Positions 16,951 to 24,980 of a stretch of 64,000 nucleotides of DNA are shown here, one piece after another. The notes beneath the pieces were generated by a model that ran no database searches, had not been told where the DNA came from, and saw only the letters and a list, made by a program, of their open reading frames with translations. Origin of the DNA: Sphingorhabdus sp. Alg231-15 (GTDB lineage Bacteria > Pseudomonadota > Alphaproteobacteria > Sphingomonadales > Sphingomonadaceae); contig NZ_LT703001.1 of the NCBI RefSeq assembly GCF_900149705.1, positions 1,736,001 through 1,800,000 of the forward strand, read 5' to 3'. The position numbers and the translations under genes were made by a program. Each line of letters begins with the position of its first letter. Position 1 is the stretch's first letter.

Positions 16951-17103
16951 AATTGCTCGGTTTCTTTTCCAGAAGATTGAATAATGGCCCTCTGTTTGGC
17001 GGGCAAAATAAGGCCTCTGCTCCTTGAGCGGGCACCTGTAAAACTTGAAAAATCGCATCATTTATTGCATTATGGGTTAACACTTCCAGCGGGAGGATAT
17101 GCC

Positions 17104-17886
17104 ATGAGCATGGGCCAACAAGCGCAGATCGCGCCAGCATCGGTCGCCAGCGATCTCAAGATAAGTGACCTTCGTGCCGCAATTGCGGCAGGCTGGCGTG
17201 ATTTCAAGGCTTATCCGGTATTCGGGCTGTTCTTCGCGGCAATCTATGTGATCACCGGCATGTTTCTCTATTTCGCACTTTTTGTTCGCGGCGAGATCGC
17301 CTGGCTGGTTCCCGCTGCAGCAGGGTTTCCGCTTCTTGCGCCCTTCATTGCGGTCGGGCTTTATGAAGTGAGCCGCCGCCGGGAAGCTGGCCTGCCAATG
17401 AGTTGGCGAGCGGTGCTCGGAGCGCTACGCGGACGCGGCGACGAACAGATATTGAGCATGGGCGTGATCCTGTTTGTCGCTTTTGCATTCTGGCTCATGG
17501 TTGCCCATGGCATTTTTGCTATTTTCATGGCGGAATCCGGCATTGGATTGGAGTCGTTGGCGCTGTTTCAGACCGCCCCCGGTATCATGATGTTGTTTGT
17601 CGGAACGATTGTCGGTGCCCTGATGGCGCTCGCCTTTTATGCGATCACCGTCGTTAGCCTGCCGATGCTGGTTGATCGCGAAGTTGATTTCATAACGGCC
17701 ATCATTGTCAGCCTGGCGACGGTGCGGTCCAACAAATTCGTTCTTCTGGCCTGGGCGGTCATGATTGCGAGTGCCCTTTTTGTTGCGATGCTTCCGCTAT
17801 TTCTCGGGCTTCTCGTTGTGCTGCCGGTACTTGGGCACGCGACATGGCACCTCTATCGGCGTGCGGTCGGCGAACCCGGATCATAA
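17104..17886 (+). CDS. DUF2189 domain-containing membrane protein
   Basis: 260 residues with six hydrophobic segments, matching the DUF2189 family of cytoplasmic-membrane proteins seen in alphaproteobacteria, sometimes near cytochrome oxidase genes. Characteristic parts are AAIAAGWRDFKAYPVFGLFFAAIYV, GFPLLAPFIAVGLYEVSRRREAG and VVSLPMLVDREVDFITAI. I place the start at ATG 17104, preceded by GGGAGG at correct spacing; an in-frame extension to 16984 has no similarity. No function is established for the family. Confidence 0.82.
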   Translation: MSMGQQAQIAPASVASDLKISDLRAAIAAGWRDFKAYPVFGLFFAAIYVITGMFLYFALFVRGEIAWLVPAAAGFPLLAPFIAVGLYEVSRRREAGLPMSWRAVLGALRGRGDEQILSMGVILFVAFAFWLMVAHGIFAIFMAESGIGLESLALFQTAPGIMMLFVGTIVGALMALAFYAITVVSLPMLVDREVDFITAIIVSLATVRSNKFVLLAWAVMIASALFVAMLPLFLGLLVVLPVLGHATWHLYRRAVGEPGS

Positions 17887-17935
17887 CGGCGAAACGACGC
17901 TATCACGCTTGGAATTTTTTAAAATTAGGATGTTT

Positions 17936-17955
17936 CCGATCGTTCTGACGATCGG
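17936..17955. terminator. Small hairpin between convergent genes, possible weak terminator
   Basis: CCGATCGT and ACGATCGG pair perfectly around TCTG, directly after the stop codon of the minus-strand barrel gene and about 50 bp after the DUF2189 stop. Neither strand shows a T-run, so function as a Rho-independent terminator is uncertain. Confidence 0.3.
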
Positions 17956-18822
17956 TCAGAAACGGATGCTCAGTCCGGCACCAAGCGATGTCGCTTCCGG
18001 CCCGATAAATCCTAGGGTCTGAGTAGCGGAAAGGCTGAGCCGCAAAGTATCTGAAAGCCCGACAGAGGCCGATCCACCAACTTCCATCCAGACGTCACCT
18101 TGTCCCGGTGCATTGCGGATCGCCGCAAGCTGCGCCATTCTTTCGCCGCCGGTTCCGGGTGAGAATACCGTACTGTTGCTGCTCGCCACAATTGCAACAT
18201 AGGGACCTGCACTATGGGCCGCTGCCTCTCCAAAAAGATGGACGTAGCTGAAGGCCAAAGCACCGCTGACGCCGTCTTCACGCTCTTCGACTGTCAGCAA
18301 TCTGCCGCCGGGCGTGGTTGCCAAGCGGCCAATATCGACACTGTCATAATCTGCTGATACCGATGGCGAGAAAAATCCATTTTCACCAACCAGAATGTCA
18401 TAGGTCAGTGACAGTCCGGCGCCGAAAATTTCGCCACTGCTATCAACCAGAACGGCATTGCCATCATTCCCCAGGCTTTCGGTATCAAATTTGCGGCGCC
18501 CCAACGAGATACGGCCGTCAATGCTGACCGCATTGAGACCAATGCCGCCGATGACGGTTATCTGCTGGGTCCGCGCCGGAACCGTTCGCAAAAGTCCCTG
18601 GGTCTCACTCGGATCGGTGAAACTTGCCGAAATGCCGATATAGGCATCGCCAATTTCGCGTGTGATCGTTCCAGCGATATAGGATTGGTCCTCACCATCG
18701 CCGATCAAAGCTGTTCCGGCTGAAACCCCTATTTCCCAATGCTTATCCTGCGCATCCTCTGCGGCGTAAGCAGGCGTCGAAGCCGCACAGGCCAGCAAGG
18801 CCAGATAAAAATTCCTCATCAT
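17956..18822 (-). CDS. Exported beta-barrel-like protein of unknown function, ECF locus member
   Basis: About 288 residues with a clear Sec signal (MMRNFYLALLACAASTPAYA, cut before AEDAQDK). The rest alternates polar and hydrophobic residues with many aromatic and glycine positions (GVSAGTALIGDGEDQSYIAGTI..., ending LGAGLSIRF). The terminal phenylalanine is typical of outer-membrane barrels. I do not recognise a named family. Start: ATG 18822 or 18819, both preceded by AGGGGG. Upstream on its own strand is GAAGGGTTTT-N10-GCGT (18880 down to 18857), the motif shared with the adjacent sigma gene. Regulation by that sigma factor is inferred. Confidence 0.7.
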   Translation of the reverse strand: MMRNFYLALLACAASTPAYAAEDAQDKHWEIGVSAGTALIGDGEDQSYIAGTITREIGDAYIGISASFTDPSETQGLLRTVPARTQQITVIGGIGLNAVSIDGRISLGRRKFDTESLGNDGNAVLVDSSGEIFGAGLSLTYDILVGENGFFSPSVSADYDSVDIGRLATTPGGRLLTVEEREDGVSGALAFSYVHLFGEAAAHSAGPYVAIVASSNSTVFSPGTGGERMAQLAAIRNAPGQGDVWMEVGGSASVGLSDTLRLSLSATQTLGFIGPEATSLGAGLSIRF

Positions 18823-18856
18823 ATTCCCCCTAAAAACATGCAACTATGATGAGAAA

Positions 18857-18880
18857 ACGCAGCGCCGCACAAAACCCTTC
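18857..18880 (-). promoter_or_regulatory. Candidate ECF sigma promoter for the barrel gene
   Basis: Read on the minus strand: GAAGGGTTTT (18880-18871), ten bases, then GCGT (18860-18857). The spacing is identical to the motifs at 18891 and 20669. It places a transcription start about 25-30 bp upstream of the barrel gene's ribosome site. Confidence 0.6.
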
Positions 18881-18890
18881 AAAAAAATTC

Positions 18891-18914
18891 GAAGGGTTTT
18901 AAGATTTGCAGCGT
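18891..18914 (+). promoter_or_regulatory. Candidate autoregulatory ECF sigma promoter
   Basis: GAAGGGTTTT (18891-18900), ten bases, then GCGT (18911-18914). It is back-to-back with the divergent copy; the two -35-like parts form an inverted repeat separated by ten bases. Transcription would begin near 18921, which argues that the sigma gene starts at TTG 18961 and not at the ATG at 18922. Confidence 0.6.
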
Positions 18915-18960
18915 ATTATAGATGTTCGGGGGCGAAAAGCCGCAAACGCGGAGTGGATAT

Positions 18961-19551
18961 TTGGAGACGGCAAGAGCGATAGATGGTCAGGATGACGACG
19001 CGCTTATGCGCGGGCTTCGCGCACGCGAATCCGATGCATTGCGCAGCGTTGCCGAGCGCTATGGCGAAATTCCGTTTCGCATTGGTTGCCGTATGCTCGC
19101 GGATCCGGTTGAAGCGGAAGATATTGCGCAAGAAGCGCTGCTGCGCCTGTGGAACCATGCGGATCGCTGGGTGGAAGGTGGGCCGGGCATTGCAGCCTGG
19201 CTCAGCCGGGTTGGAACCAACCTGTGTATCGACAGGCTGCGCAAAGCGCGCCGCCAGAGCAATGACGAGCCCCCCGATCGCGCCGACGAAACACCGTTGG
19301 CCGATGCAGCAATAGAAAGTGATGAAGTGAAACAAGCGGTCATCGAATGCATAAGCGGGCTTCCCGAACGGCAGCGGGCATCGATTATTCTCACTTATTA
19401 TGAGCAGCTTTCCAATCAGCTTGCTGCGGACAATCTGGAAATGAACATCAAGGCTTTTGAATCTCTGCTCTACCGTGCGCGCGGGATATTGAAAGACTGT
19501 GTCGAAGGTAAGGGCGTGGTCAAGGATGATGCCGGAAGGATCTGTCTATGA
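18961..19551 (+). CDS. ECF-type RNA polymerase sigma factor
   Basis: 196 residues. Sigma region 2 is visible as MLADPVEAEDIAQEALLRLWNHADRW, and region 4 as LPERQRASIILTYYEQLSNQLAADNLEMNIKAFESLLYRARGIL. No region 3 or extra C-terminal domain is present. Start: TTG 18961 with GGAG seven to eight bases upstream; an ATG at 18922 would lie at or before the predicted transcription start. Its 3' end overlaps the next gene (ATGA), which has the layout of a membrane anti-sigma factor. The shared upstream motif suggests the sigma factor drives its own operon. Confidence 0.88.
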   Translation: METARAIDGQDDDALMRGLRARESDALRSVAERYGEIPFRIGCRMLADPVEAEDIAQEALLRLWNHADRWVEGGPGIAAWLSRVGTNLCIDRLRKARRQSNDEPPDRADETPLADAAIESDEVKQAVIECISGLPERQRASIILTYYEQLSNQLAADNLEMNIKAFESLLYRARGILKDCVEGKGVVKDDAGRICL

Positions 19552-20648
19552 GCAACGCATCGACCAATGCCTTCTCCCCAGCCATGCGCGCGGCCCTCGA
19601 TCAATTTGACGTGCCTGCTCTGCCCAGCGGCTTTGCTGACCGTCTGGTTGCCCGAGTGGAAGCAGAGGCCACTGCCAAACCGGCAGCCCACATCGATTCC
19701 ACGCCGCGTCACCGCTCCTCCGCAAATCCCTGGCGCCGCGCGGGACGCTGGATTGGTTCGGTCGCTACCGTCGGGCTGATGTCGGCAACAGCCGCCGCGA
19801 TGGGGCTTTTGGGTGAGCCCGTCGAGGTTCCGGTCATTTCTGACATCGCCCGAACTCTGGACATTGTCGCTGAGCCAGAACCTGCAGCCGTTCCTATCGT
19901 TCGCAAAGCAGATCCAGGCTCATCGGACACCGCCGGGCAAGGTCTGGATACAGAAGCGATTGCTGGCGAAGAACAACTCTCTGAAGGTCAGAAAAACGCA
20001 CAAAATATGCTGGAACGCGTGACTGATGCCCCGCGCTTCAAGCAGCTGCGTCCGCGACAAAAAGCGGTTCTGCTGCGGGCGGCGTCCAGAAAACTGATAC
20101 GCTCCGGCAAAGCCACGCCCGAAGAATTGCGTTCGGCGGTCAAACAGGTGCGAACAGAACGGCAAGCCAGTCGGAAGACCGAGCGAAGTCAGCGGATACG
20201 CGAAAAAATCCAGAATGCGACACCGGCACAAAAGGAAAAACTGCTTGAGCGGATTGAGACTTTGCCGCCCGAACGGCAGTCCATTGCCAAAGAGAGGCTG
20301 GCCGGAATTATGGCAGAGGAAACGGCCGCGCCATCCGAACCATCATCGCTCGCGCCCTTGGAGGTCGAAAGCGAGACATCTGGAACGATAGATGCAGCCG
20401 TACCTGTCGAAATGCCGGAAATCGCTGCTGATGATGGCATGGTCGAAGATTCAGCCGCATCAACGACGCCGATGGCGGCGGTACCAGTTGGGCGCCAGCG
20501 GTTGGAACAGTTTCGCGACCGCTATCAGCAGGCCACGCCAGCCGAACGGGCGCGCATGCGCGAGCGTGCCAAGCAGCTTCGCAAGACGGCCAAACCGCGT
20601 CCGAACCTCAGAGATCGTCGCGCGCAGATACGCCGCCGCCGCAATTAG
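19548..20648 (+). CDS. Probable membrane-anchored anti-sigma factor with periplasmic helical domain
   Basis: 366 residues. A cytoplasmic N-terminus of about 65 residues (ALDQFDVPALPSGFADRLVARVE) is followed by one membrane helix (about 68-88, WIGSVATVGLMSATAAAMGLLG) and a long charged periplasmic region. That region is rich in Arg, Glu and Gln, with repeated elements of the type LPPERQ / ATPAERARMRERAKQLRK. These resemble DUF3106 or heavy-metal-sensor-like helices, but I cannot assign a family with certainty. Co-translation with the sigma gene (ATGA overlap) and the single-helix topology are the grounds for the anti-sigma call; no direct anti-sigma motif is obvious. Confidence 0.65.
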   Translation: MSNASTNAFSPAMRAALDQFDVPALPSGFADRLVARVEAEATAKPAAHIDSTPRHRSSANPWRRAGRWIGSVATVGLMSATAAAMGLLGEPVEVPVISDIARTLDIVAEPEPAAVPIVRKADPGSSDTAGQGLDTEAIAGEEQLSEGQKNAQNMLERVTDAPRFKQLRPRQKAVLLRAASRKLIRSGKATPEELRSAVKQVRTERQASRKTERSQRIREKIQNATPAQKEKLLERIETLPPERQSIAKERLAGIMAEETAAPSEPSSLAPLEVESETSGTIDAAVPVEMPEIAADDGMVEDSAASTTPMAAVPVGRQRLEQFRDRYQQATPAERARMRERAKQLRKTAKPRPNLRDRRAQIRRRRN

Positions 20649-20668
20649 GGCAGATCACAAAAATTTTT

Positions 20669-20692
20669 GAAGGGTTTTTCATCCTCCTGCGT
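20669..20692 (+). promoter_or_regulatory. Candidate ECF sigma promoter, third copy
   Basis: GAAGGGTTTT (20669-20678), ten bases, GCGT (20689-20692). Same geometry as the two motifs at 18.9 kb. It lies about 55 bp upstream of the small exported-protein gene and 20 bp after the anti-sigma stop, giving that gene its own sigma-dependent start. Confidence 0.6.
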
Positions 20693-20746
20693 TGAACAGT
20701 CAGGAGCGGCAAAGAAGCTGCGACTGAATTGAGTATGGAGAGTAAG

Positions 20747-21322
20747 ATGAAAAAGATTATGTTATACCCATTGGCCGCATTGCTGATTGGCGGCCCAGCG
20801 CTGGCACAGGGCAGCAAAACGGTAACGGTGGACAACAACCGGATCAGCGGCACCAAAACCATCACCCGTGACGGCGCTGGCACGGTTGTCGTTGACGGCG
20901 ATGTCACCCGCAAATCGGATGGCGCAACCGCAAGTCATGACTATAATCGCACACGCACCGAAACGGGCTGGACGGCCAGTGGTCAGCAGACCGACTTCAA
21001 AGGCCGATCACGCGGCTTCGATTATCAGCGCGACCGGACGGAAAACGGCTTTGAAGCCAGCGGTTCCGGCTATAATCGCCGCGGTGATCAATATGACTAT
21101 TCCGCTTATGGCACACGCGGCGAAAACAGCCGGGAACGCGGCCGGACGGTGAGCAGAAATGGCGATGTCGTCTATGATCGCCTGGACAATGCTTCGCGCG
21201 TCGACGGCAAGATCGTTCGCAACACACAGGTGACCCGCGACCCAAGTTTTCGGCCAAAGAAAAGAGTGAAGCCGCTTCGGGTCAAAAATCCAAAACCACG
21301 CAGATTTCGCCGCGATCGCTAG
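20747..21322 (+). CDS. Small basic exported protein of unknown function
   Basis: 191 residues with a Sec signal (MKKIMLYPLAALLIGGPALA, cut before QGSK). The mature protein is rich in Arg, Asp, Gly, Tyr and Thr with short imprecise repeats (RTRTETGWTASG, RDRTENGFEASG) and a very basic tail (KKRVKPLRVKNPKPRRFRRDR). No family recognised. Start ATG 20747 has GGAGAG at proper spacing. It has its own copy of the GAAGGGTTTT-N10-GCGT motif, so it is a likely target of the neighbouring sigma factor. The repeats suggest an extracytoplasmic scaffold or polyanion-binding protein, but this is speculation. Confidence 0.65.
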   Translation: MKKIMLYPLAALLIGGPALAQGSKTVTVDNNRISGTKTITRDGAGTVVVDGDVTRKSDGATASHDYNRTRTETGWTASGQQTDFKGRSRGFDYQRDRTENGFEASGSGYNRRGDQYDYSAYGTRGENSRERGRTVSRNGDVVYDRLDNASRVDGKIVRNTQVTRDPSFRPKKRVKPLRVKNPKPRRFRRDR

Positions 21323-21411
21323 ATCGACGAAAGCGACTGCGGCTGGCACTATCCTATCACTCAATCGGCCAGCCGCAGTTTCATTTCCCAGTTGAAAACA
21401 GGAGAGAGGCT

Positions 21412-21708
21412 ATGAAACAATCCCATATGATGATCATTGCAGCCCTGGTGATACCAGCGCCTGCGCTTGCTCAGCAGCAATCCGTTGCAGCAAGTCCCGC
21501 TCCGGATGCCGTTACCAATGCACCGGTCCGGCCAATTGCCGTACGCCCCGACGCCGGACCGAACGGACCCAATTGGAAAGCCATTAACCGCAAAATCAAC
21601 GCCCGGGCCAAAAACGCTGTAAATAACGGTGCACGGCCAAAAGTCGTTCGTCATAAAGTGAAAGCCTACAAGCAGAAGCTGCGCCGCCGCTGGAATGCGT
21701 CCCAATAA
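21412..21708 (+). CDS. Small basic exported protein of unknown function
   Basis: 98 residues with a signal peptide (MMIIAALVIPAPALA, cut before QQQ), a Pro/Ala-rich stretch, then a basic helical tail (INRKINARAKNAVNNGARPKVVRHKVKAYKQKLRRRW). Ribosome site AGGAGAGAG lies just upstream of the ATG. It is 90 bp behind the other small exported gene and shares its basic C-terminus style, so it may be on the same ECF-driven transcript. No family recognised. Confidence 0.6.
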   Translation: MKQSHMMIIAALVIPAPALAQQQSVAASPAPDAVTNAPVRPIAVRPDAGPNGPNWKAINRKINARAKNAVNNGARPKVVRHKVKAYKQKLRRRWNASQ

Positions 21709-21734
21709 TCCCTGCCCTGAACCCAGAGCCCCCG

Positions 21735-21800
21735 ATGGGACCACCGCCCGTTACTGGTCCCATATGCTTCAAGTGTGAAACCAGAATCTGCGCTTGAAGC
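21735..21800. other. Two consecutive inverted repeats downstream of the ECF locus
   Basis: ATGGGACCA (21735-21743) pairs with TGGTCCCAT (21755-21763), an 11-base loop between. GCTTCAAG (21766-21773) pairs with CTTGAAGC (21793-21800). Both are perfect and sit just before the terminator at 21806, so the 3' untranslated region can fold into three stem-loops. Confidence 0.5.
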
Positions 21801-21805
21801 CAATG

Positions 21806-21835
21806 AAGGGCATGGCGAAAGTCATGCCCTTTTTT
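21806..21835 (+). terminator. Rho-independent terminator
   Basis: AAGGGCATG pairs with CATGCCCTT around GCGAAAGT and is followed immediately by a T-run. It ends the ECF-locus transcript before the convergent hydrolase gene. Confidence 0.75.
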
Positions 21836-21851
21836 GCTGATCACGGAGTCT

Positions 21852-23330
21852 CTACTGCCGGAGAAGACGGTTTCCGGCGGTCATCAAATCGGGCAGTTCT
21901 GATACTATGACTCTACCATCAACATCTTCACCGCGCATGAATTCCTGAATTGTAAGGGTGACCTCTGGCGGAGACATGAACAGATTGTGTCCGGCATCCT
22001 TAACCGTGACCAGCTGTCGGTTCGCAAAGCCCCGGACCGCTTCATGCTGGCTCTCGATATAGGTCCGTCCGTCCAGTGTCCCGCTGAGCAATAATAGTGG
22101 GATATCCGATATGGGCGGTCTCCGAAACTCTTCTCCCAGGACTAATGTCGGTTCGACATTCTCCAACTCCAGCGGCTGGTTGAGATAAGTGGCCAGCAAG
22201 GAGGTTTTCGCTTGCATCTTAATCAGTGCTCGTCGGTCCGCGCTCGTGCCCGATGCGATGTCCATCAGCACCGACATCGGCCAGAAGGCAATCTTGTCAT
22301 CACTACCCAGCATTCTGGGTGCGATCTTTTTCAGAAGCCCATATTCGCCTTGATCAACCTCTCTGTAGAGCTGCAGCAACAGGCTGAGTGGGAGGGGATC
22401 GGAAATCATACCCGACGCCGCACTTTGCATATTTCGTCTTTGCCATAGGTGCTTTTGCTCCACACCATCTCGATCCACATAATCAATCATGACAGGAGCC
22501 TGTTCCAGCTTGGCATGGACCCGACGCATCAGAGCCTTGATGTCTAGTATTTCGGCTTTCGCCTCAGGCTGCCGATCAATTGCCTGCTGCACGCGTTCAA
22601 AATAGCGGTCTGTGCGGGCGGGCAGTTTTATGGTTTGATCAAGACCTTCAGCGCTCGCAATCACGATTTTGTCGATTTCACCTTCCATCTGCCTCGCCGC
22701 AGCCAGAGCAAGATGCGATCCGTAGGATATGCCCCAGAGTGTAAGTTGTGATACGCCAAGATGCTGGCGCAGGTCGCTCAGGTCAGCGACATTTTGGACG
22801 GTATTATATCCCCTGACGTCAATTCCTTTGTCCGTCCAGAATGCCAAGCATTCCTTCAAAGCTGCAACCTGCCTTTTCCGGTAATCCTCGTCCAAAACAG
22901 GGGCTGTTCCACCCGATGACTGAGAAGAACTGCATTTCGGCATGTCAGTAGAGGCGCCCGTGCCCCGCTGATCCAGTGCGATGACGTCACCAAATTCACG
23001 CAACGCCATGAACAAGGCAAAGCGGCGTACGCGGGCGGTCCTGATGCCAGACCCTCCGGGGCCTCCCGCCAGATATACAATTGGAGAGCCCGGATTGCTG
23101 CCGGTAGCGGGGAACCGGACATAGCGTAACGTCAGAGTTCTGCTGTCCGGATTGGCGCGGTTCTCTGGGACCGTGAAATGCCCCTCAAATGCCTCGGTGG
23201 CTTCACCCGAAGCAGCTTCAAAAACAATCTCCTTTTCCTGTTCGTCCAGGTGATCCGTTTGAACCGCCGCAGCTGCAGGATCAGTCAGGGATAGCGCAAA
23301 CAATGAAGCATATATGATATTCAGGTTCAT
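21852..23330 (-). CDS. Secreted alpha/beta hydrolase (S33 / TAP-like prolyl-peptidase group)
   Basis: 492 residues with a signal peptide (MNLNIIYASLFALSLTDPAAAA). The alpha/beta-hydrolase elements are the oxyanion loop VYLAGGPGGSG, the nucleophile elbow LWGISYGSHLA (Ser), and a C-terminal KDAGHNLFMSP with the histidine. The LLLLSGTLDGRTYIES segment would hold the catalytic Asp. This architecture is that of S33-type aminopeptidases or esterases exported to the periplasm. The ATG at 23330 is chosen because the signal peptide begins there; the open frame extends upstream without sense. It is divergent from the LytTR regulator. Confidence 0.82.
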   Translation of the reverse strand: MNLNIIYASLFALSLTDPAAAAVQTDHLDEQEKEIVFEAASGEATEAFEGHFTVPENRANPDSRTLTLRYVRFPATGSNPGSPIVYLAGGPGGSGIRTARVRRFALFMALREFGDVIALDQRGTGASTDMPKCSSSQSSGGTAPVLDEDYRKRQVAALKECLAFWTDKGIDVRGYNTVQNVADLSDLRQHLGVSQLTLWGISYGSHLALAAARQMEGEIDKIVIASAEGLDQTIKLPARTDRYFERVQQAIDRQPEAKAEILDIKALMRRVHAKLEQAPVMIDYVDRDGVEQKHLWQRRNMQSAASGMISDPLPLSLLLQLYREVDQGEYGLLKKIAPRMLGSDDKIAFWPMSVLMDIASGTSADRRALIKMQAKTSLLATYLNQPLELENVEPTLVLGEEFRRPPISDIPLLLLSGTLDGRTYIESQHEAVRGFANRQLVTVKDAGHNLFMSPPEVTLTIQEFMRGEDVDGRVIVSELPDLMTAGNRLLRQ

Positions 23331-23404
23331 TCGAACGACCTCTATGTTGTTTCGATGATCCGATATTAGGCTACAAAGCGAGCCAGTCCGGGCAAATGGG
23401 CACC

Positions 23405-23434
23405 AACGGTAGGTTATTTCTGTCAAACGGTCGT
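23405..23434 (+). promoter_or_regulatory. Candidate LytTR direct-repeat operator
   Basis: Two nine-base direct repeats, AACGGTAGG (23405-23413) and AACGGTCGT (23426-23434), start exactly 21 bp apart, i.e. on the same helix face. This is the arrangement bound by LytTR domains. It lies about 35-65 bp upstream of the LytTR gene and 75-105 bp upstream of the divergent hydrolase start. Confidence 0.4.
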
Positions 23435-23468
23435 TCCCGGTAGCGTCAAATCCTTCTATGGCAATCAT

Positions 23469-24980
23469 ATGTTCAACCGCTCGATCACGCTTGCTCACTG
23501 TTTCATTTTCTTGATGCTAGCCGTCTACAGTCCAGCCATGGCGGTGACCTGGATTGATCGAGACGAGGTGAAAATTTGTCCGGCATCCAGTGGTGATCTG
23601 GAGAAAATACCGAATTTTTCATCACCAGGCTGCTACGCAGCCAAGGCATCTGCAATTGACCCACAAGAAAACCTAATCTGGGTGAAGGCAAATCTCACGC
23701 TCAATGAGACGTCTGGTCCTGTCGGAGAACCCTTGGCTTTGTTTGTTTCCGGCAAGATGGCGAGTGCCTTCTACCTCAACGGTAGATTCGTTGGTCAGAA
23801 CGGCAAACCGGGAATTGACGCAGCAACCGAGCAACCCGGCCTGATGGATGCAACACTCTACCCTTCCCAGAACAGCTTTAGAGAAGGCCGCAACTCTGTC
23901 GTGTTTCTCGCTTCTGCCCATCATGGGATCATCAATCTTGCGAGTCCAATCCATATGATTGCTATCGGTCCGGCGGGGAATGCTTCTGACCAGCTGCTGC
24001 GCCATTATTGGCCCTCGATCATCACCTTGGGCCTGTTCATCGTCGGTGCTGTCTATTTCGGAATTGCCGGAATCCGGGGACTATCAAGGAAGAAGTCTTT
24101 GCTATTGAGCCTGATATGCACCTTTGCCTCACTCCAGCTATTTTCAGAAATCCTCAGAGGCTTGGTAACCTATTCCTACCCGATGCATGACTGGCGATTG
24201 CTCGCGATTACGGTGTTCTCAGCCGGTTTCGGATTGACCGTGGCATTCCATGTTTTCTCAACATTCATGCAAAAGAACATTCTGCTGTCGATGATCTTTG
24301 TCACCGGAGTGAGTGTGCTGGCGGCAATTCTTAACTCGGGATTTGATGACAAGACTTTATCCGTGATGCTGTTGCCGTTGGTAGCCAGTCTCATTGTGGC
24401 TGGATATGCAAGCTACAAAGGTCAGCCTCGGGCGTTCGTATATTTCTGCGCTTTGCTGGCGTTTGTTGCTGCAATTGGTCTTTTTCCCTATCTCTTTCTC
24501 GACACCATCTTCTTCTATCTGGTTGCCGCTCTGTTACTGTTTCTTTTTGTTGAACAGGCGTTGGCCCATGCAAGAGAAGCAGATGAACGCAGGATAGAGG
24601 AAGCCCGTGCAAACAGACTGGAATTGGCCTTGGAACAGGCCAAGGAAAGGGAGCAAGCAACAGAAATCAGCGTAAAAAGTGCCGGTAGAATGGAGCGTAT
24701 TTCTGCAGTTCAGATCAAATATTGCAAAGGTGCCAGCGGTTATACAGAAATTGTGCTGATCGATGGACGCGAAATTCTGCACACAGCTACGCTTTCTGAA
24801 ATGGAGGAGCTTTTACCCACTATTTTCATTCGCGTGCACCGGTCCTATCTCGTTAACACCGCTTTCGTTCAAACCTTGATCCGTGATGTGACTGGAACTG
24901 GACGGCTAACCCTTGTTGACGGATCCCAGTTATCCGTTAGCCGCAGAACCATGCCAGCGGTTCGCAAGGCATTGGGCTGA
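23469..24980 (+). CDS. Membrane-bound LytTR family transcriptional regulator
   Basis: 503 residues in four parts. First a signal peptide (to about residue 25). Then an extracytoplasmic domain of about 145 residues with a jelly-roll-like 'SAFYLNGRFVGQNGKPG', similar in feel to 7TMR-DISM sensors. Then about seven membrane helices (about 180-360) and a charged coiled-coil linker (EADERRIEEARANRLELALEQ). Last is a C-terminal LytTR DNA-binding domain (KYCKGASGYTEIVLIDGRE, FIRVHRSYLVNTAFV, LTLVDGSQLSVSRR). This is a one-component sensor: signal outside, DNA binding inside, with no histidine kinase needed. Ligand unknown. The divergent hydrolase is the obvious target candidate. Confidence 0.82.
   Translation: MFNRSITLAHCFIFLMLAVYSPAMAVTWIDRDEVKICPASSGDLEKIPNFSSPGCYAAKASAIDPQENLIWVKANLTLNETSGPVGEPLALFVSGKMASAFYLNGRFVGQNGKPGIDAATEQPGLMDATLYPSQNSFREGRNSVVFLASAHHGIINLASPIHMIAIGPAGNASDQLLRHYWPSIITLGLFIVGAVYFGIAGIRGLSRKKSLLLSLICTFASLQLFSEILRGLVTYSYPMHDWRLLAITVFSAGFGLTVAFHVFSTFMQKNILLSMIFVTGVSVLAAILNSGFDDKTLSVMLLPLVASLIVAGYASYKGQPRAFVYFCALLAFVAAIGLFPYLFLDTIFFYLVAALLLFLFVEQALAHAREADERRIEEARANRLELALEQAKEREQATEISVKSAGRMERISAVQIKYCKGASGYTEIVLIDGREILHTATLSEMEELLPTIFIRVHRSYLVNTAFVQTLIRDVTGTGRLTLVDGSQLSVSRRTMPAVRKALG

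Follow-up and report, generated by a model that had tools for sequence, protein, structure and literature searches.

The window, that is, the whole stretch of 64,000 nucleotides that was analysed, holds a small gene cassette arranged around a sigma factor gene (18922-19551, forward strand). Its deduced product of 209 amino acids consists of regions 2 and 4 and nothing else (Pfam Sigma70_r2, 3.3e-15; Sigma70_r4_2, 2e-10), which is the layout of the ECF (group 4) sigma factors; the best NCBIfam model, NF004113, scores 185 bits, under its cut-off of 208. A 4-bp overlap joins the gene to the following one (19548-20648, forward strand), in whose product a single hydrophobic helix near residues 69-87 separates a short N-terminal block from a long helical tail; the AlphaFold model of this protein is mostly helical with a mean pLDDT of 61. 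The window protein matches no Pfam family above cut-off and no anti-sigma family, and DUF3106 matches weakly in three of 24 orthologs; a hydrophobic stretch is present in each of 33 open reading frames downstream of sigma. The protein is taken as a candidate membrane anti-sigma factor on the strength of its position and layout rather than of any family match. Further along the same strand lies the gene of Exp1 (20747-21322), apparently an exported protein (signal peptide by eye) with a meander of beta-strands and a basic tail, as judged from an 18-member alignment and from the strands of an AlphaFold model (mean pLDDT 62); the window protein has no Pfam match. It is followed by the gene of Exp2 (21412-21708, forward strand), a small basic exported protein; three relatives from the genus have an ortholog of it downstream of Exp1, and L072 has one near sigma. 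Divergently from sigma, on the reverse strand, an outer-membrane beta-barrel protein is encoded (17956-18822; Pfam Autotransporter beta-domain, 2.9e-7).

The motif GAAGGGTTTT-N10-GCGT occurs without mismatch at 18857-18880 (reverse strand), 18891-18914 and 20669-20692 (both forward strand), just where the earlier note had placed three identically spaced sites. All three are intergenic, each faces a gene start, and the letters between the motif halves are not alike among them. With up to two mismatches allowed, the window still contains three matches, compared to a mean of 0.35 after shuffling, three or more being reached in 2 of 100 shuffles. A search of the whole genome (3,622,901 bases), which the earlier note had proposed, returned the same three sites, spanning 1.9 kb, as the only exact matches, and none for the reversed pattern used as control. 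One further match has a single mismatch; at up to two mismatches the total of 31 does not exceed the 35 of the reversed control, so that only the exact sites stand out.

Each site can be read as a predicted promoter, with the start placed 12-13 bases downstream of the C of CGT, a distance counted on the Sinorhizobium meliloti ECF26 promoters in Table 1 of PMC6180224. The barrel promoter would have its -35 element (GAAGGG) at 18880-18875 and its -10 element (GCGT) at 18860-18857, with a start near 18847. For sigma and the overlapping gene the predicted elements are cGAAGGG (18891-18896) and GCGT followed by A (18911-18914), with a start near 18924. This is two bases downstream of the A in the ATG at position 18922, so that translation of sigma probably begins at the TTG at 18961, which is preceded by GGAG. 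The Exp1 promoter (GAAGGG, then GCGT followed by T) would start transcription near 20702. Exp2 has no exact GAAGGGTTTT-N10-GCGT motif of its own in the window and is perhaps co-transcribed with Exp1; between the two genes, at 21337-21378, an 11-bp inverted repeat with a 20-base loop was seen by eye, which might lower read-through.

Orthologs of sigma are sparsely distributed: within the genus, five of 32 genomes have one at a threshold of 1e-30, and within the family 35 of 387 at 1e-40, the window's own being counted in both cases. The comparison covered the window and 36 other sigma loci (37 in total), plus one locus, L105, with a motif match and no sigma. The order barrel, divergent from sigma, then membrane protein and exported protein recurs, whole or in part, in several genera of the Sphingomonadaceae, Exp1 being present at 17 and barrel orthologs at 16 of the 37 loci, the window's included. 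The pattern GAAGG-N16-CGT(T/A) precedes sigma at 28 of 37 loci, Exp1 at 16 of 17 and the barrel gene at 14 of 16, counts that are not independent of each other because the loci are related (the sigma factors of L069, L070 and L071 are at least 89% identical to that of the window); in 200 shuffles the mean numbers of matches were 0.06, 0.015 and 0.01, respectively. The 28 matches before sigma span 11 genera, and the two barrel orthologs without an N16 site have one with N17. Of the nine sigma loci failing the strict pattern, four (L075, L077, L098, L099) carry near variants differing in the first base, the last base or the spacing; the remaining five (L093, L094, L102, L103, L104) have no site before sigma, L094 having one in the opposite direction, so that the code does not reach every sigma homolog. 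The claim that an ECF sigma gene shares a promoter-like site with two of its neighbours is thus upheld at the orthologous genes, where absence of the motif had been named in the earlier note as grounds for giving the idea up. One sigma ortholog (L043; G394 C1:52332-52901) has a single TGA inside the match.

Most sites in the relatives read cGAAGG-N16-CGT(T/A), the -35 element being followed by A/T-rich bases, and a few have a spacing of 17 bases instead. A consensus was drawn from 42 sites with GAAGGG, in which the letters GAAGGG and CGT are fixed by the selection; there, C precedes GAAGG in 37 of the 42, the two bases after GGG are A or T in 42 and 40, and the next base is T in 37. Sites outside this selection read mostly cGAAGGA or cGAAGGT, from which it follows that the third G is not essential. 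The -35 core is cGAAGG, with the third G and the run of T (TTTT) as optional parts. The gap of exactly ten bases at the three window sites results partly from counting TTTT and G as motif. Each of the window sites has one base that is not the majority letter of the family, namely an A after CGT at sigma and a T before GAAGG at the barrel and Exp1 genes.

The motif also co-occurs with the sigma gene. The exact motif was found in five of 149 family genomes, or four of 148 apart from the window's own; in three of these four (G021, G050, G127) it adjoins a sigma ortholog, and in the fourth (G120) no such sigma is encoded within 12.5 kb around the site. The broader pattern cGAAGGNWWT-N12-CGTT gave 68 sites in 29 of 37 sigma-bearing genomes, compared to 15 for the reversed control; the corresponding figures for 28 sigma-lacking genomes are six sites, in six genomes, and 14 for the control. 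A genome counts as sigma-lacking here if it gave no sigma match at 1e-30 (for the genus) or 1e-40 (for the family); a single genus contributes 18 of the 28.

The regulon had been described as compact. It is not confined to the locus, as there is a fourth site in the source genome (G000 C1:3429540, reverse strand; L140, about 1741-1766) and there are sites at DUF1800 genes in other genera. The fourth site, which is kept in a sigma-bearing relative (G176), lies before a beta-lactamase-family gene whose product has a lipobox-like start; another relative, G178, has the gene (70% identity) and neither sigma nor site, a single sigma-lacking case. Near the sigma cassette (window 23469-24980, Pfam), and also near this fourth target (L140 2836-3501, by eye), there is a gene for a membrane protein that carries a LytTR DNA-binding domain. 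Among 17 off-cassette sites, picked by eye from the matches to the broader pattern and read individually, 13 precede plausible targets and four look like chance. The targets are DUF1800 genes (four), genes for exported proteins of a Cys-rich/hydrolase class (three, with Pfam BD-FAE in two), and for small exported proteins (two), the beta-lactamase-family gene just described (two), one Exp1 paralog and one polysaccharide-synthesis gene.

DUF1800 was then searched for in 60 genomes, comprising the 28 sigma-lacking ones and 32 of the 37 sigma-bearing ones, the five without a site before sigma being left out. It is present in 19 of the 32 sigma-bearing versus two of the 28 sigma-lacking genomes, figures not corrected for kinship, and in none of the five sigma-bearing genomes of the source genus. 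The 32 matches include 30 with a readable locus, and 17 of these (L129, L133, L136, L144 and 13 among L168-L197, all from Sphingomonadaceae) have the motif upstream on the correct strand, 13 with N16 and four with N17; none of the 30 has it on the reverse strand or downstream. C precedes GAAGG in all 17, four of which are the sites that had raised the question in the first place. All motif-bearing loci are among the 28 from sigma-bearing genomes, both sigma-lacking loci being without motif; 11 of the 28 have no site, the upstream sequence being just 73 bases long in one and 220 in another.

The back-to-back placement of the first two sites, pointed out in the earlier note, is likewise conserved. 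In the window the two -35 elements form a perfect inverted repeat, AAAACCCTTC-N10-GAAGGGTTTT (18871-18900), and all 16 barrel-bearing loci have both divergent sites when N15-17 is allowed. In 12 loci the divergent -35 elements stand 8-10 bp apart, and in four the gap is 27-31 bp; the latter (L096, L098, L099, L100) belong to one genus (g21), the widening amounts to about two helical turns, and a run of A/T lies in between in each. On geometric grounds, two polymerases could hardly fit together at a gap of 8-10 bp.

The motif, very probably, marks promoters read by the ECF sigma factor of the window (gene at 18922-19551), which would serve its own operon, the barrel gene, Exp1 and distant targets. 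RNA polymerase carrying this sigma factor would recognise cGAAGG (-35) and, after 16 bases, CGT(T/A) (-10), and would transcribe the sigma operon including the gene of the putative membrane-bound inhibitor, the divergent barrel gene and that of the exported beta-rich protein, as well as at least one remote gene of the source genome, the one for the beta-lactamase-fold protein. In other genera its targets would also comprise DUF1800 genes and genes for secreted hydrolases. Without stimulus the sigma factor would be bound by the membrane protein; an extracytoplasmic signal, which may be the envelope stress predicted in the earlier note, would free it, upon which it would amplify its own synthesis. 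Judged by sequence comparison, this ECF promoter code and its regulon are probably genuine and conserved, and of an ordinary kind. A more far-reaching version is tentative and on balance doubtful: that a sphingomonad regulon of many genera has its own -35 code, that the back-to-back promoters, too close for two polymerases at once, constitute a built-in choice between more sigma and the barrel, and that the far targets, above all DUF1800, are parts of one envelope programme.

The symmetry of the divergent pair, perfect in the window and similar in relatives, could also suggest that a different regulator, one binding DNA as a dimer, uses the motif as its operator. This is very unlikely, as Exp1, the beta-lactamase-fold gene and DUF1800 are preceded by unpaired sites that hold the CGT half at an equal or near-equal distance, the gap between the halves of the repeat is variable (8-10 versus 27-31 bp), and the DUF1800 sites face the gene (17 versus none on the reverse strand). 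That the match is due to chance or to a common short repeat is next to negligible; two of the three sites are adjacent and could derive from one inverted duplication, yet the bases between the halves differ among the sites, whose placement and direction are conserved across several genera. The upstream counts at the cassette genes, the numbers from sigma-bearing and sigma-lacking genomes and the strand-specific sites at DUF1800 likewise speak against it.

It is very improbable indeed that the promoters are real and read by another ECF sigma factor of the genome, for example EcfG. The general stress sigma factor EcfG (ECF15) uses a -35 element GGAAC and a CGTT-type -10 element, and genes for PhyR and NepR lie adjacent to it. 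The -10 element resembles that of the window motif and the -35 element is unlike cGAAGG; around the window sigma, no PhyR- or NepR-like protein is among the eight neighbouring proteins scanned (16984-24980). The motif tracks the presence of the window-type sigma factor, the 28 sigma-lacking relatives showing no excess of sites over the control. In favour of another ECF sigma factor speaks the distance from GAA to CGT, which is 20-21 bases in the S. meliloti ECF26 promoters (counted on Table 1 of PMC6180224) and nearly the same here.

ECF26 members (RpoE1, RpoE3, RpoE4 and RpoE6 of S. meliloti) have a membrane anti-sigma factor encoded downstream (PMC6180224), to which the candidate anti-sigma factor would correspond; their -35 element is GGGAAT-like in Table 1 of that paper, as opposed to cGAAGG in the orthologs of the window sigma. 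RpoE6, picked out by the published promoter of its neighbour and the sole ECF26 member compared, is 32% identical to the window sigma over 130 residues (53 bits) and sits on a long branch. In an RpoE1 target, SMc04291, the string GAAGGGAATA-N10-GCGTT seemed at first to settle ECF26 identity. It was dismissed as a coincidence of overlapping letters, as the start of this target and the other promoters of Table 1 (PMC6180224) give GGGAAT and CGTC as its -35 and -10 elements. Caulobacter SigV, with a periplasmic EF-hand protein, is an alphaproteobacterial ECF sigma factor that is reported to be autoregulated (PMC13171946); it was compared by its promoters, and those reported for it, GGAAA / CGTTCA and GGAAGCTTCG / GCTTCA, differ from the window motif. 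A cGAAGG-type -35 element was not encountered among the ECF papers listed in the literature searches, which did not extend to the current ECF classification; the latter may already define the group and motif of this sigma factor. The earlier remark that the -35 element is not recognisable from known ECF groups thus holds for that literature, and unrecognised does not mean new.

What emerges is a probable promoter code, well backed by comparison, for a sphingomonad sigma clade, by which the likely regulon can be read off any new genome. Two points are of interest, the conserved back-to-back promoters and the link to DUF1800, a Pfam family of unknown function seldom named in the literature searched, for which the code provides a regulatory context.

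Closer to the window sigma than RpoE6 are plasmid-borne relatives: 34 plasmid records match it, with 31-41% identity among the matches listed, and 11 such relatives score 100-128 bits, about twice RpoE6. They include plasmid ECF operons of Ensifer, Azospirillum and Phaeobacter with a "periplasmic heavy metal sensor" (33-40% identity), in which the gene order is sigma, short hypothetical gene, sensor in five of the six annotated loci read, the exception being Azospirillum brasilense RpoE6. The sensor is a separate gene there, whereas in the window one long membrane protein follows sigma; an EF-hand gene precedes the Phaeobacter relative, which recalls Caulobacter SigV. GAAGG-N15-17-CGT(T/A) is absent just before the sigma genes of these plasmid relatives, Ensifer included; beside the Ensifer sigma lies a DUF1501-DUF1800 pair, as fits the DUF1800 link. 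In two Azospirillum species (L158 5749, L159 5762) GAAGG-N16-CGTT occurs with identical letters between the heavy-metal-sensor gene, which it directly follows, and a small hypothetical gene, and judging from these sites the cGAAGG code may reach beyond the Sphingomonadaceae.
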